54,177 nt of DNA from positions 1 to 54,177 of the forward strand of contig DASXEJ010000095.1 of NCBI GenBank assembly GCA_036490175.1, written 5' to 3'. Position 1 is the first letter of the stretch; every line of letters begins with the position of its first letter. Below, piece after piece: positions 3,342-19,063 of the stretch. This stretch comes from Pirellulales bacterium. GTDB taxonomy: Bacteria > Planctomycetota > Planctomycetia > Pirellulales > JACPPG01. A model generated the notes under the pieces. The model was not told the DNA's origin. It did no database searches and worked only from the letters and a program-made list of their open reading frames with translations. A program made the translations under genes and the position numbers.

Positions 3342-3564
3342 TTTCGGGCGATGGACGGGCCATTTATTAACAACGGTGCAAGCTTCCTGCTGACGAGTGA
3401 CGTGACGGCTGCTGGTGCGATCGGGAATTGCCAATTCATTAAAATTTGCTGGCAAACCGTTCGGAAAGATTGCACAATGACGGTCCGGTGGGACATCCAT
3501 TATTGCTGTGGCTGGCAATCCCAAAACCACTCGGGCCCAAAAACACTCGGGATAGGGGAGCAGG

Positions 3565-5394
3565 ATGTTAGAGCGAGGGCAGAATCTCGTGCAGCAATCT
3601 CAGCGGATGATCTTCCGCACGAAACTTTGTCGAGAGGTTTGCACGGCAGCGGTTGCCTGCACTGTGCTTTTCGCGGGGATTTTTCCCGCCACGGCGGATC
3701 CGACGGCAGACGCCGGTAAATCCACGCCGCCAGAGGAACAAAAACAGCCCGCGCCGCCTCTTTCGCTGGCATACGTTCCCTCCGACGTCGTGGGATTGTT
3801 CGCGCTACGGCCCCAGGGTTTCTTTGGGCTGGGCGAATTCAAGGTGCTCGACCGCTGGTTGAACATTCCCGGGACGGATTTTCGGAATCCGATCGCGGTG
3901 ACACAGATCGAACAGATCACGATGGCGGTCATGCGGCCCAACGCCGATCGTCCGCCTCCCGCAGCGGGTATGCGTCTGGACTTCGACATCAACATCATCC
4001 GTTCACGTGAGCCGATCGACTGGGAACGGAAGAAGGAGGCGGTTCCGTTTCGGCTCGAGCCGGCCGAACATGCCGGAAAGCAATATTACACGATTCCGGA
4101 GCAACCCAACGTTTGCTTCTGGCCGGTCGACGCGCACACCTACGTCTTGGCCGATCAATGGACGCTCAAGCGAGTGATCGAACAGGCACCGGGCGATGCT
4201 GCGCAGCTTCCCTGGGGAGATGCCTGGTCCGAGGTGGCCAATGCCCCGCTGGGATTTGCGTTTGCCTCGGACTGGGCCGCGCAATCGATCACGCAGGGGC
4301 GGCGCGATTTGCCGGGCGCGGATACGCTTCTCAAGGACACCAAGGCCCTGCTGGCGTCGCTGGATGCTGAGCACGGCGTTCGCTGGCGCGTCATGCTCAA
4401 CTGCGCCGATGACGAATGGGCCAACAAGAAAACGCAGGCAGCCAAGGCGCTTATCGGTGCGGCGCGCCTGTTGATGAAGCCCAAGGCGGCTCCCGCACCT
4501 CAGCCGGACGGCAAGTTACCTCCCCCCTCGAGCGCCGAGCTGACGAACCAACTTTTAATGTCGGCCGAGTTTGCGCAGTCCGGGCACTGCGCGATCGTGA
4601 CCATGCGCAGCGAGATCGAAGTACCTGTCGCCATGCAGGTTGTCGTTGGCGCGGTAGGACAGTTTTTTGGTCGCGGCGTGAGTGCCTCTGCCGGTCGTGT
4701 GCAATTTGGACGACCTGTCGAAGCCGCGACGACAGCCGTACCGGCGGGCGTGGTCAACTCGCCTGCGATGGCCAAGCGGCGAGCGCTATCTAAGGAGAAT
4801 CTGGGTCGGGTGGCCGCGGCCCTGGCAAAATATCACGAACGAACCAGTACATTTCCCGCGCGGGCCAGCAAATCGGCCGACGGCAAACCGCTGCTAAGCT
4901 GGCGAGTTGAACTATTGCCCGACCTAGGGTACGAAGAACTCTATCGCGAATTCCATCTGGACGAAGCTTGGGATAGCGAGCACAACGCGCCGCTGGTGGC
5001 GAAGATGCCGCGCGAATACGGCGGCTCGTTGGCGGCCGACGCAAAGCCGGCCAACGGCAACACGCTGGTCGTGGCCGTGGTTGGGCCGGGAACCTGTTTT
5101 CCTGAGGAGGGCACGACGAGCGTGTCGCAGATCGCCGACGGCGTCGCCACGACCGAACTCATCGCTGAATCACGAAGCATTACACCCTGGACCAAGCCTG
5201 CTGACCTGGAATTGGATGCGTCCGGAAAATTAAAGGGGCGGCTCGGCGGTGTTCATCCTGGCGGCGTGGTGATTTGTACGGCTGACGGCAAGCCGCACTT
5301 TGTCCGCGATGCCAATTTGTCCGTGCTATTGCCAGGGCTAATTACCATCGCCGGAAACGAGACGATCGACCTCAAGGCCCTCGGCGAGGAATGA
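3565..5394 (+). CDS. Secreted protein with C-terminal DUF1559-like H-X9-DG region
   Basis: A 609-aa protein. GGGGAG at 3555-3560 supports ATG 3565; ATG 3607 would give a cleaner signal peptide, with a hydrophobic stretch ending in an ATA-type cleavage site. The N-terminal two thirds match no domain I know. The region after about residue 410 resembles DUF1559: a segment on stepwise samples and working volume (LLPDLGYEELYREFHLDEAW), then HPGGVVICTADG, an exact H-X9-DG motif, near the end. DUF1559 proteins usually begin with a prepilin leader; this one has an ordinary signal peptide instead. It lies upstream of the DUF1549 gene, 74 nt before its start, and may belong to that transcript. Function unknown; probably periplasmic or surface located. 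Confidence 0.8.
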   Translation: MLERGQNLVQQSQRMIFRTKLCREVCTAAVACTVLFAGIFPATADPTADAGKSTPPEEQKQPAPPLSLAYVPSDVVGLFALRPQGFFGLGEFKVLDRWLNIPGTDFRNPIAVTQIEQITMAVMRPNADRPPPAAGMRLDFDINIIRSREPIDWERKKEAVPFRLEPAEHAGKQYYTIPEQPNVCFWPVDAHTYVLADQWTLKRVIEQAPGDAAQLPWGDAWSEVANAPLGFAFASDWAAQSITQGRRDLPGADTLLKDTKALLASLDAEHGVRWRVMLNCADDEWANKKTQAAKALIGAARLLMKPKAAPAPQPDGKLPPPSSAELTNQLLMSAEFAQSGHCAIVTMRSEIEVPVAMQVVVGAVGQFFGRGVSASAGRVQFGRPVEAATTAVPAGVVNSPAMAKRRALSKENLGRVAAALAKYHERTSTFPARASKSADGKPLLSWRVELLPDLGYEELYREFHLDEAWDSEHNAPLVAKMPREYGGSLAADAKPANGNTLVVAVVGPGTCFPEEGTTSVSQIADGVATTELIAESRSITPWTKPADLELDASGKLKGRLGGVHPGGVVICTADGKPHFVRDANLSVLLPGLITIAGNETIDLKALGEE

Positions 5395-8602: not shown

Positions 8603-10296
8603 ACAATCGTCTGATCGTGTTTTTTCTACTCTTGATCGTGGGCGCCGCCGTATCCTCGCCGGCGGTGGCGGACGAGCCCGCGGTGATGGCGCCCGCGGAC
8701 GATCCTACGAACGTGCAGGATCTGGTCCTGCTGCACATTGGCCGGCCGATCATTATTCGTCTGCACATCCGCCTGGCAGGGCAGGGGTATCAGGCCACTT
8801 GGGGCGATTGCCTGTGGGATCGCTTTCAAGAACTTGACGCGGATGCCAACGGGTCCCTGGACCACGACGAATTTCAGCGCGGCGACTGGTCCACGTTCAC
8901 AGAGCGGCGCACCAAGGCGGGCACCGTGCGCGGTGAGGCCATTACGTTTCTCGATTTGGATACCAATCCCCAGGACGACGTCATTTCGTTCACTGAGTTG
9001 GTCGAGCAGCTGGCCCAATGTTGCTTCGGGCTGAATCGCGCCGTTCAACGTCGTGCCACGGCCGCGGGCGATCCGCTGTTTGCGCTATTGGACCATGATC
9101 GTGATGGCCAGCTCGACAGTCAGGAAATGACAGCCGGGATCGAAACGCTCTACAGATTCGATCGGGACGAAGATGAGATGTTCAGTCAATTCGAGCTGCG
9201 CGCCGACGGGAATCCGTTTGCCGATTCCGTTTACGAGAACCCAGGCCAGGCGGGGCAGGCCAGCGGAGAGTTGATACTGGCGCCGATACCTGATCAAACG
9301 GCCGAGGCGGTTTGCCAGGCCATCATGGCGCGCTACGATCGGCCGGCCCAGGGTGAAACGCCGGCCGACCGCCGGCTCTCGCGCGAGGAATTGCGCCTGG
9401 CGGACGATCAGTTCGTCGCTGCCGACGCCAACGGCGATGGCGGAATCGACGCCGCCGAATTGCAAGCCTGGTATACGAGTCGACCCCCCGATGCAGAGCT
9501 CTCGGTCGTGCTCGATTCGGGCGTGCCGAACGACAAGCGGTTGCAAGTGATTAACTCGACCGGTGCCAGCGAATCAGGAATTGTGCAGAGTGCGGTCGCC
9601 GCGGACGGCTCGCTCGTGATTCGCGGAACCGCCTTCGAGCTGGACGTGCGGGCCAGCGGATCGGGCGAGCCGAAGCAGGTGGCAGAATCGGCGCGTCAGC
9701 TGTTTAAACGCGGCGACATGGACAAGAACGACTACCTGGACAAAAACGAACTGCGACGAGTGCGCGGCGGAGCCGAATTCTCGCGCATTGACAAGGACCA
9801 CGACGGCAAGATCTTCGTCGAGGAATACGTCGAGTACATCACGCGGCAAACCGAGATCGCGTCGCAACGTACGAGTGCCGTTTTCTCCGATCGTGGCAGC
9901 ACGTTGTTCGAGCTCATGGACACCAACCGTAATGGCCAACTGGCGACGCGCGAGCTGCGAACCTTGCCGCAGGTCGTCTCCGGCTGGGATAACGATCACG
10001 ATGGCAAGATCAAGCACGACGACATTCCGCGCCGCTATCAGTTGCAATTCGCGCCGGGGGCCGGAAACGCGACAGCAAACAACGTCGGTACGTTTACCGT
10101 TGCCGCGCGCAGCCCCAACAATGCGCGTCTCAGTGGTACCGGCCCGGAGTGGTTTCAGCGCATGGACCGTAATCGCGACGGCGATCTCTCACGACGCGAG
10201 TTCCTCGGAACGCGTGCCGATTTTCTCAGGCTCGACGCAGACCACGACGGACTGATGAACCCCAAGGAAGCCGAAGCCCTGGGCACGGCAAAGTAA
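8599..10296 (+). CDS. Secreted multi-EF-hand calcium-binding protein
   Basis: A 565-aa protein starting at ATG 8599, which overlaps the DUF1501 stop by 4 nt. Residues 1-25 form a signal peptide. I count eleven EF-hand-like loops along the chain. Canonical 12-residue loops include DADANGSLDHDE, DHDRDGQLDSQE, DANGDGGIDAAE, DKDHDGKIFVEE, DTNRNGQLATRE, DRNRDGDLSRRE and DADHDGLMNPKE. Loops such as DRDEDEMFSQFE and DMDKNDYLDKNE lack the central Gly but keep the ligand acids; one loop near 8960-8995 is a residue too long. The product is expected to bind many Ca2+ ions outside the cytoplasm. Translational coupling suggests it works with the DUF1501/DUF1549 proteins, perhaps as a calcium-stabilised partner. 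The gene ends 5 nt from a convergent gene. Confidence 0.9.
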   Translation: MNNRLIVFFLLLIVGAAVSSPAVADEPAVMAPADDPTNVQDLVLLHIGRPIIIRLHIRLAGQGYQATWGDCLWDRFQELDADANGSLDHDEFQRGDWSTFTERRTKAGTVRGEAITFLDLDTNPQDDVISFTELVEQLAQCCFGLNRAVQRRATAAGDPLFALLDHDRDGQLDSQEMTAGIETLYRFDRDEDEMFSQFELRADGNPFADSVYENPGQAGQASGELILAPIPDQTAEAVCQAIMARYDRPAQGETPADRRLSREELRLADDQFVAADANGDGGIDAAELQAWYTSRPPDAELSVVLDSGVPNDKRLQVINSTGASESGIVQSAVAADGSLVIRGTAFELDVRASGSGEPKQVAESARQLFKRGDMDKNDYLDKNELRRVRGGAEFSRIDKDHDGKIFVEEYVEYITRQTEIASQRTSAVFSDRGSTLFELMDTNRNGQLATRELRTLPQVVSGWDNDHDGKIKHDDIPRRYQLQFAPGAGNATANNVGTFTVAARSPNNARLSGTGPEWFQRMDRNRDGDLSRREFLGTRADFLRLDADHDGLMNPKEAEALGTAK

Positions 10297-15952: not shown

Positions 15953-17809
15953 TTAGCTGCTGCGCCGTGCAGTCGTGGTCGCAAACCGGGCGACTGAGGC
16001 GATTGCCGATCGAGCGTATTGATTGACAGTATCTCCGTCGACGTCCGCCGCGCCAGACATCACCTGATCAACCGCTGCGGCATGGCTCTGATCCGATGGG
16101 CCGATAAAACTTGCCAGCGGAGCCGTGGCGCTCGACACAGACGGTGTCGCGGTCGAAGAAGCTATTTGTGCGGGCACTGCGGCCCACGACAGCGCTTCGG
16201 CAGCGTTATCGCTTCCCGAAAACCCGTTCGCAGCAGCAGAACGCAATGCCTGTTCAGCCGACAGGGGGCTGGCAGACGGACTTAAACCGGAGCTAGGAAA
16301 GGGTAATGGCCCCGTCCACACGTGGGTGCTAGAGACCGGCGGGGGCGCGTGTTCTGGTTGCGGTGTGTTGGCAGGCGGAACGATGGCCGGGGCCGACGGA
16401 TCCCCCTGATTGCTGAGCGGATCAGCTTCTTGTCCCATGAATAGCACGCTGCCGGATTGCGTGTCGCGGATCATGTACAAAAACGGATGATCGGCATCGA
16501 ATGCTATAGGTATCGTGGGATCCATTGTAACCACCGTGACGTGAACCAATCCCACTCCGGTGGCGGCCGCGGCCTCGGTGCCTGACTCGCCAACATCGAT
16601 AAATGCTTTGTGTACGACGGCCGTGATGTTCAACAAACTCGGGTTAGTCATGCCCGAGAAATCCGCGTTGCGTTGGAATGGATCGATCATTCCCAATGTC
16701 GTCAAGGGCGGGACCAGGTCGAATTGGGAGGTGAGCGTGAATTTGGGGAGTGAAACGGCCACGTCCTGCCGGCTGAGGCCCGCTAGCCAACCGTTGAGGT
16801 CGCTAGGGAGTTGGCTGACACTCAAGCCGGCTGCTCCGCTAGTGGTGGGGAGCATGATGTCCATGACCATCCGTCCACTGGCGTAGGGTAGTTCGACGAT
16901 TTGAAATCCGTCACTCTGCATGTACTTGAACGAGTCGGTCTGATGCATGGTCGAAACTTGCTCTGCCTCCCCTGAGCTGAGCGTAAAGTTGGCGCTATAA
17001 GTCATGGCCGCGTTGAATCCGCTCGACCATCCCCCCTGGAAGTACAGAGCATTGGCCAGCACGAGCTTGGTGAACTGGTTGATCGAGGCGTCGGAGAAAA
17101 GATTTTGGATCTTGCCGTTGGTCTGTTGGGAAACCCAATTATTGATCGTTTGTATGGCCGCATCAGGATTGCCCGCGAAGTTGGCCTGATTGAATGCGCC
17201 CCCGTAGGAGGTCTGCATGGTGTCAAGGAACTGCGTGAGGAATTGCAGCCCCTGTTGACCCCACAGCGCGTCGGCAACCGACAACGCGTATTGGCCTTGG
17301 CCGGCGCTATTCAAATCAGCCAGCAAGGTGCCAAACTCCTGGGCGGTGTCGGCCTGGCTCCCGCTTAGGTGCAGCACGCTGGCCATCTGCGCTGCGGTCT
17401 CGCCTTGGGCGCCGGCATAGGCCATGGCCAAAGCAGTCGAGATGCTCAGCGGCGAGAGGAGCATGTTCCCGCTGCCGCCGGGCGTTGTCTGCAACTCGTT
17501 GTAAAGATCGAGTCCGAGTGCATTGATCGACTGACCGGCTGCCGTCTCGTCGGCAATCTGCGCCGAGGTAAGAACCGGCGCGGCGGAGTTGGTATTGCCC
17601 GTCGTCGTCACGGGCGTTAGTACGGAGACTCCGGCAGGTGGCGCCGTACCGAACCGCAGCGGGCCGACAAAGGGGGCCACGGTCAGCAGATCGCGCGACT
17701 CGAGCGATTCGATCCGTAGCGGCCGCGACAGCTGCTTGCGATGGGGCCGACGCGATGCGGATCGGCCCCAAATGTTACTCAGTCGCTTGCGCTGCTCCTT
17801 CGCAAACAT
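15953..17809 (-). CDS. Serpin-family protease inhibitor with LEPR-like N-terminus
   Basis: A 618-aa protein. ATG 17809 follows GGAGAA at a good distance; an in-frame start nine codons upstream lacks support. The basic N-terminus carries RIESLESRDLLTVAP, close to the LEPR-XLL motif. The serpin domain runs from about residue 80 to 460: NMLLSPLSISTALAMAYAGA at the start and FDADHPFLYMIRD at the end. The hinge of the reactive loop, ESGTEAAAATGVG, has the small residues needed for loop insertion, so it is probably inhibitory. Counting from the hinge places P1 at a Val, but the loop is about seven residues longer than alpha-1-antitrypsin and a Met downstream is possible. A Pro-rich, then Ser/Ala-rich tail of ~150 residues follows. 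Likely extracellular; target unknown. Confidence 0.9.
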   Translation of the reverse strand: MFAKEQRKRLSNIWGRSASRRPHRKQLSRPLRIESLESRDLLTVAPFVGPLRFGTAPPAGVSVLTPVTTTGNTNSAAPVLTSAQIADETAAGQSINALGLDLYNELQTTPGGSGNMLLSPLSISTALAMAYAGAQGETAAQMASVLHLSGSQADTAQEFGTLLADLNSAGQGQYALSVADALWGQQGLQFLTQFLDTMQTSYGGAFNQANFAGNPDAAIQTINNWVSQQTNGKIQNLFSDASINQFTKLVLANALYFQGGWSSGFNAAMTYSANFTLSSGEAEQVSTMHQTDSFKYMQSDGFQIVELPYASGRMVMDIMLPTTSGAAGLSVSQLPSDLNGWLAGLSRQDVAVSLPKFTLTSQFDLVPPLTTLGMIDPFQRNADFSGMTNPSLLNITAVVHKAFIDVGESGTEAAAATGVGLVHVTVVTMDPTIPIAFDADHPFLYMIRDTQSGSVLFMGQEADPLSNQGDPSAPAIVPPANTPQPEHAPPPVSSTHVWTGPLPFPSSGLSPSASPLSAEQALRSAAANGFSGSDNAAEALSWAAVPAQIASSTATPSVSSATAPLASFIGPSDQSHAAAVDQVMSGAADVDGDTVNQYARSAIASVARFATTTARRSS

Positions 17810-18117
17810 AATTCTTCTCCAACAGATCGAAATCAAGGGAGGGCCAGGGCCGAACGGACAAACGCAAAAGTGGATTCATGTCCCCCATAGTCCTAAAGGG
17901 CCGACTTTAGTCGCAGATTGTCACGGTGGCTGCCACGAGTAGGGCGGCCGATTGAACGCGGCGGGCCGCCGAAACCCGCTGGGGGCAGAGACCATTCCAA
18001 GATTCCGGTGGTCGCCTGCCACGGGTGGAACTGAGTTGTTTTCTAGCGATTTTCGGGCGGCTTCCGACCAATTGGCCGGTCACCAGACAACCAGGGTGCA
18101 TGATTTTCGCCCATGAT

Positions 18118-18147
18118 TTGCATAGTGATCGCCCCCTTTCCTATATT
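18118..18147 (+). promoter_or_regulatory. Candidate sigma-70-type promoter of small RNA
   Basis: TTGCAT at 18118-18123 and TATATT at 18142-18147 are 18 nt apart, a good match to housekeeping -35/-10 elements in an otherwise GC-rich region. Initiation would fall near 18155. No gene start follows closely, but a terminator does at 18255-18296. Confidence 0.45.
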
Positions 18148-18154
18148 TCGCCTC

Positions 18155-18296
18155 AGCACAATGATCGACCCAGCCAGGTGATCCGTGTCGCAGCGGAAGT
18201 GTACCAGAGGCTGCCGTTGATACTCCATCGGAGCTGACCCGCTCCGTTATATGAGCCGTCAGGGCTTTGTGGATCGCCCTGGCGGCCTCTTTTTTG
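18155..18296 (+). ncRNA. Candidate small RNA, about 140 nt
   Basis: The interval lies between a promoter-like sequence and an intrinsic terminator and has no supported reading frame. It can fold: CAGCC (18171-18175) pairs with GGCTG (18209-18213), CGGAGC (18229-18234) pairs with GCTCCG (18241-18246) around a 6-nt loop, and the terminator hairpin closes the 3' end. I compared it by eye with SRP and 6S RNA and saw no match to their core motifs. The family is unknown. The 5' end is inferred from promoter spacing. Confidence 0.45.
18255..18296 (+). terminator. Intrinsic terminator
   Basis: GCCGTCAGGGC (18255-18265) pairs with GCCCTGGCGGC (18276-18286), 10 of 11 positions complementary plus a T-G wobble, and is followed by CTCTTTTTTG. 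This is a textbook rho-independent terminator on the plus strand. No plus-strand protein gene precedes it, which is the main evidence for the small RNA. Confidence 0.75.
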
Positions 18297-18409
18297 CGCA
18301 CGCTAAGTGGTCCGGAGTTTGCATTCAGGCGAGAAGTAGTCGCCCAGCCCTCTCACAGGCGTTTAGTGCGACCGCGTGCACGATTTGATTGGGAAGACAA
18401 GGTTCCAGG

Positions 18410-18580
18410 ATGAAGCCGACAGAACATCGCGAGCAGTCGTTACGGGCCTACGATGACCAATCGCTCATGGCCGCTTATAAGATCGCGGCCGGACTGCCGA
18501 TGGACGCCATTGTTAGCGGCAAAACACGCGATCAGATGATCGCCTTCATCTTGAAGTCGGAGCAGGCGAAACGGAAGTGA
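18410..18580 (+). CDS. Small hypothetical protein, 56 aa
   Basis: A 56-aa product from ATG 18410, with AAGG about 7 nt upstream. The sequence is charged and probably helical (SLRAYDDQSLMAAYKIAAGL, then IAFILKSEQAKRK), without signal peptide or membrane segment. I do not recognise a family. It lies 114 nt after the small-RNA terminator and about 200 nt before the ABM-type gene, all on the plus strand. Its short length makes the call uncertain, but composition and start context are like a real gene. A small cytosolic protein of unknown role is the most that can be said. Confidence 0.5.
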   Translation: MKPTEHREQSLRAYDDQSLMAAYKIAAGLPMDAIVSGKTRDQMIAFILKSEQAKRK

Positions 18581-18778
18581 TCGTGCGCGGGCTGGAATCT
18601 GGCCTCCGCCCTGGCTCTTGCGGCCTGATGATTGGCGAAGGCCGTCTCGCCGGGGGACCTTGTTGGGCAGCGTCAGGTTCTATACTCTCATGAGCAAGCA
18701 CGTAACGCCTTGATGGTTAAGTGGCGCCTCGATCATGAGGACGCCGCCGCACGACATTGCAAAGGGAGCCCAAGCTCG

Positions 18779-19063
18779 ATGATTACCGTTGGCATGAACT
18801 ACCACGTTATCGCCGGCAAGCAACAGGATTTCGAGGACAAGTTCAGCGCCGTCATTGCGGCACTGCGTGCTGCCGCGGGGCATACGAGCTCGACGCTTTG
18901 GAAGGACGTAGCCGACGACGCTTCGTACCTCATCACCAGTGAATGGTCTGACGAGCAAGCTTTTCAGGACTTCATCCGCAGCCAGGCTTTCAAAGACGTG
19001 ACGACCTGGGGCAAAGAACAAATCCTATCGGGCCGCCCCCAGCACAAGATCTATAAGCACTAA
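18779..19063 (+). CDS. Antibiotic biosynthesis monooxygenase (ABM) family protein
   Basis: A 94-aa ferredoxin-like-fold protein. The pattern MITVGMNYHVIAGKQQDFE, then TSSTLWKDVADDASYLITSE and AFQDFIRSQAF, fits the ABM/YgiN-type dimeric alpha-beta barrel family, whose members include small monooxygenases, haem-degrading enzymes and proteins without known activity. ATG 18779 is chosen because homologous folds start at this strand; GGGAG lies about 10 nt upstream. A longer in-frame version beginning near 18632 has no support. It is monocistronic here. The real substrate cannot be told from sequence. Confidence 0.8.
   Translation: MITVGMNYHVIAGKQQDFEDKFSAVIAALRAAAGHTSSTLWKDVADDASYLITSEWSDEQAFQDFIRSQAFKDVTTWGKEQILSGRPQHKIYKH

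Follow-up and report, generated by a model that had tools for sequence, protein, structure and literature searches.

A candidate intergenic small RNA gene ending in a strong intrinsic terminator in a Pirellulales bacterium

A short intergenic unit of a Pirellulales bacterium is tentatively regarded here as an independently transcribed, lineage-specific small RNA gene roughly 140 nt long. It lies in a window of 54,177 nucleotides, the whole stretch of DNA analysed, which corresponds to contig C95 of a genome assembled into 393 contigs totalling 7.58 Mb. A small RNA gene is the most economical explanation using all features, and it is favoured because the unit combines a strong terminator of a recurring type, an orphan position, no coding signal, a folding excess confined to the plus strand and no antiterminator seen in the nascent folds. 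Against it stand a promoter no better than chance, the lack of any homologue in the genomes searched, a modest folding excess and the lack of a target signal among eight gene starts of the window, and at present the unit is a single candidate, unproven and not conserved, of a kind that is nothing unusual. If transcribed, it would represent a small RNA candidate from planctomycetes, a group on whose small RNAs no paper was found by title in the literature searched, and it would point to searches for strong orphan terminators as a way of finding small RNA genes in these bacteria.

In the proposed scheme, RNA polymerase would start near position 18155 on the plus strand and would release an RNA of some 140 nt with three hairpins after stopping at the intrinsic terminator at 18255-18295. 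The function of this RNA, if any, would most likely consist of base pairing in trans through the ACUCCAU linker between its first two hairpins, whose CUCC would be able to cover GGAG ribosome-binding sites. The bolder version of this scheme, a new and very young small RNA gene of one planctomycete lineage, formed when an intergenic stretch was joined to a terminator module that recurs in this genome, and with CUCC acting on ribosome-binding sites, is considered unlikely.

The terminator and the promoter-like site

The intrinsic terminator (18255-18295, plus strand) is the feature established at the sequence level; transcription, start site and function are inferences. Its stem (18255-18265/18276-18286) holds 11 pairs without mismatch, comprising 9 G-C, 1 A-T and 1 G-U, and encloses a 10-nt loop; CTC, a run of six T at 18290-18295 and GCGC follow. 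The sequence-only reading, which had singled out this terminator for its quality, was right in this regard: 10 of the 11 pairs are Watson-Crick, and the score of 27.0 exceeded the highest value (23.1) in ten Markov shuffles of the window, none of which did as well, these shuffles, like those of the promoter, C60-body and target tests described below, keeping dinucleotide frequencies on average only. In a scan of both strands it ranked second of 18 plus-strand candidates, beside 12 on the minus strand, and the sole candidate scoring higher, at 336-366, has a poor T-run. The standard scan, which accepts loops of 3-8 nt only, omits it.

A 19-base pattern made of the 3′ arm and tail of the terminator, with one mismatch allowed, occurs at 36 places in the genome compared to 2 for the mirrored control. 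Thirty of these places were given loci, of which 22 fold below -14 kcal/mol, and in a by-eye reading about 17 of the 30, including that of the window itself, have the stem abutting the T-run, while some of the others, such as L028, resemble coding sequence. Since the module recurs across the genome, the terminator of the window is one of the ordinary terminators of this bacterium.

Many terminators of this genome show, as a separate observation, TGCGC or GCGC after the T-run, either directly or after 1-2 bases (18290-18299 in the window). The sequence TTTTTTGCGC is present in 66 copies in the genome compared to 20 of its mirror, which is an imperfect control, and its excess is found in all five members of the genus (61/25, 43/10, 79/33 and 32/14 in the other four). 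Some other genomes of the order do not have this excess, e.g., 7/19 in G009. Three copies of TTTTTTGCGC with an exact spacing of 24 bases and the look of a short tandem repeat occur at G001:C155:1410-1467.

Upstream of the terminator, a putative weak sigma-70-like promoter can be read on the plus strand at 18118-18147, where the letters claimed earlier are indeed present: TTGCAT at 18118-18123, a spacer of 18 nt and TATATT at 18142-18147. These boxes match the consensus at 3/6 positions (TTGCAT compared to TTGACA) and 5/6 positions, respectively, for a total of 8/12. The window holds 21 sites of the same grade on its plus strand and 27 on its minus strand, ten plus-strand shuffles gave 15-30, and a standard, stricter promoter scan of the window does not list this one. 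By itself, the TTGCAT-18-TATATT site is not promoter evidence, and what speaks for it is solely its position relative to the terminator. The description of the unit as an orphan promoter-RNA-terminator arrangement is thus upheld in part, with a terminator lacking an upstream plus-strand gene and a plausible transcript on the one hand and a promoter not above chance on the other. With a promoter match that does not rise above chance, the suggestion of an abundant RNA is left unsupported.

The heptamer TTTGCAT has four plus-strand copies in the window (10367, 11711, 18117 and 18318) and none on the minus strand. Two of them, 201 bases apart, flank the unit on either side (18117 and 18318), and another copy precedes, at about position 526 of locus L026, a paralogue of the small protein gene ORF56 discussed below.

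RNA body, coding potential and known families

The putative RNA would span 18155-18293, its start being placed from the position of the −10 box. Two hairpins before the terminator had been proposed, and both are recovered by folding: a long imperfect hairpin 1 of about 20 pairs (18164-18221), identical in every nascent length folded, and hairpin 2 (18229-18246), with six pairs between CGGAGC and GCTCCG. The linker ACUCCAU (18222-18228) between them is unpaired in both the minimum-energy and the centroid structures. The whole segment 18155-18296, terminator included, reaches a minimum free energy of -56.9 kcal/mol (z -2.95), as good as which none of 200 shuffles was found. For the body alone (18155-18250), the plus strand gives a z of -2.24, with 4/200 shuffles as good, versus -0.58 and 56/200 for the minus strand. 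The predicted folding excess of the body is therefore modest and restricted to the plus strand.

In minimum-energy folds of nascent RNAs, hairpins 1 and 2 form in all lengths containing them whole, and the terminator arm, which adds 24 kcal/mol, is never committed to either of them. No antiterminator mutually exclusive with the terminator was seen in these minimum-energy nascent folds. With regard to a possible target, the CUCC of the linker matches, as its complement, a ribosome-binding site of the sequence GGAG and may serve as a seed; duplex energies against eight gene starts of the window gave no signal (z from -0.68 to 1.13).

The earlier observation that some 140 nt lack a supported reading frame agrees with the codon score, which is positive in none of the tested frames of the unit and positive for the downstream ORF56 and monooxygenase genes. 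Known families do not explain the unit either: a scan against 4227 Rfam families, SRP RNA (RF00169) and 6S RNA included, gave no match in the window at the gathering threshold, and ARAGORN found no tmRNA or tRNA gene, in line with the failure of the sequence-only reading to match the unit to SRP, 6S or tmRNA. The SRP RNA of the genome itself lies away from the unit, on contig C152 (57.6 bits). At a permissive threshold the lone match was to sX14 (RF02233), a small RNA of Xanthomonas, with 13.8 bits compared to a gathering threshold of 80 and an E value of 3.9. Membership in this family was rejected on a score at chance level and far under the gathering threshold; the likeness lies in the rough order of elements, two successive hairpins and then a terminator.

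Trans-acting intergenic bacterial small RNAs, the class sought by screens such as sRNAscanner and sRNAPredict, share with the unit an orphan position, a length of about 140 nt, hairpins, an intrinsic terminator and an unpaired CUCC linker. The unit differs from that class in its weak promoter, in its lack of conservation and in being known here from sequence alone.

Search for relatives

Relatives of the unit were sought at several levels. A DNA query of 541 bases gave no match in any other of 57 genomes, four of them from the same genus, and in these four (one of which, G002, is 77% complete) a search at E values up to 10 returned short matches only, with a best E of 0.017. Among 396 genomes of the order, the only DNA match of the unit was its own genome. 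Exact 20-mers of the unit revealed no homologue in genome_contigs, a scan that may omit records near the own genome. A single-sequence covariance model of the body, run on 20 genomes, found nothing in the 19 others at E values up to 1, recovering the window itself and one place in its own genome at an E of 0.73, and the same model gave weak matches only (E of 0.32 and 0.46) on five loci.

The proposal of a novel family is not borne out by these results: neither the DNA searches nor the structure model detected a second member in the genomes covered. Conservation in related genomes, by which the sequence-only reading had itself proposed to be judged, was not found, and its claim is thereby weakened, although many small RNAs are lineage-specific. 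The gene neighbourhood is not conserved within the genus either (see below). The unit therefore accompanies no particular gene family and, among the genomes searched, occurs in its own genome only.

Flanking genes and competing explanations

The unit sits in a divergent gap. On one side, the serpin gene occupies the minus strand (15953-17836, with a likely ATG near 17809), its serpin-like product showing a Planc_extracel motif that scores below the Pfam cut-off and is in keeping with a planctomycete. On the other side, ORF56 (18410-18580), a gene for a small protein of 56 residues that lies outside the unit, pairs on the plus strand with a gene for an antibiotic-biosynthesis-monooxygenase-like protein (18779-19063). 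In a greedy gene map, every ORF of at least 150 codons between 10302 and 30289 is on the minus strand, and the terminator is considered an orphan because the nearest upstream plus-strand ORF of that size ends at 10296, 7.8 kb before the unit.

This setting would also suit a punctuation terminator that halts stray divergent transcription from the serpin promoter region ahead of ORF56 and the monooxygenase gene, leaving a functionless RNA. Such an explanation, which is somewhat unlikely, draws on the position of the element between the serpin ATG and that of ORF56, on the contrast between a strong terminator and a weak promoter, and on the unconserved body, but it does not account for a body that folds better than shuffles on the plus strand only, and no bidirectional promoter was identified. 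The flanking genes are not kept together within the genus, and the serpin of G004 is just 42% identical to that of the window; a simple scan of the 1.5 kb on its 5′ side showed no plus-strand terminator and, on the minus strand, one weak hairpin followed by five T.

Improbable, in turn, is an attenuator or riboswitch leader of ORF56 and the monooxygenase gene with a conditionally bypassed terminator. Like such leaders, the unit presents a structured region and then a terminator, 5′ of ORF56 and on the same strand as the genes that follow; unlike them, it shows no antiterminator in the folds examined, and no such element was found ahead of the homologues of ORF56 and the monooxygenase gene. The free terminator arm, without competition from hairpins 1 and 2, disfavours this reading, and the gap of 114 nt from the T-run to the ORF56 ATG is long. 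Moreover, the monooxygenase orthologue of the same-genus genome G003 is 93% identical, but the DNA match is confined to the gene (18777-19062), and the DNA upstream of it is not similar. ORF56 has one paralogue in its own genome (contig C270) and one homologue in G003, and this family keeps 42-43% identity and 16 invariant columns (18410-18580 in the window, 581-757 in L026 and 1501-1644 on the minus strand of L025); it has no Pfam match, and no relative was found in genome_contigs. In the 5′ region of the C270 paralogue, a simple scan found no terminator.

A chance arrangement, in which a terminator-like module landed untranscribed in an intergenic gap, is quite improbable: closely similar modules do exist elsewhere, contig C60 included, but strand-specific folding is unlikely to coincide in one gap with both a strong hairpin and a T-run. 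Least probable is a mini-mRNA encoding a short peptide, for instance in the 19-codon frame that begins with GTG (18178-18237). The peptide of this frame resembles by eye one upstream of the similar terminator on C60, but the frame has a negative codon score and its peptide finds no match in its own genome beyond itself. Contig C60, reached through its terminator, was also tried as a paralogue of the small RNA gene candidate and rejected, the module being alike (local score of 46) and the upstream body at chance. The alignment of both bodies scored 18, a value equalled by 167/500 shuffles and 317/995 pieces of the window, and the by-eye likeness of the peptides was dropped because the bodies align no better than shuffles.

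Contig C60 (locus L058, 4.8 kb) contains, at about 790-1850, 3540-3600 and 3980-4035, many short ORFs and dense terminator-like hairpins. Several of these hairpins, and likewise one in L050, carry by eye a common apical loop like GGTTCCTGCCCCACC, and a looser version of this loop also occurs in one hairpin of the same-genus genome G002 (L012).
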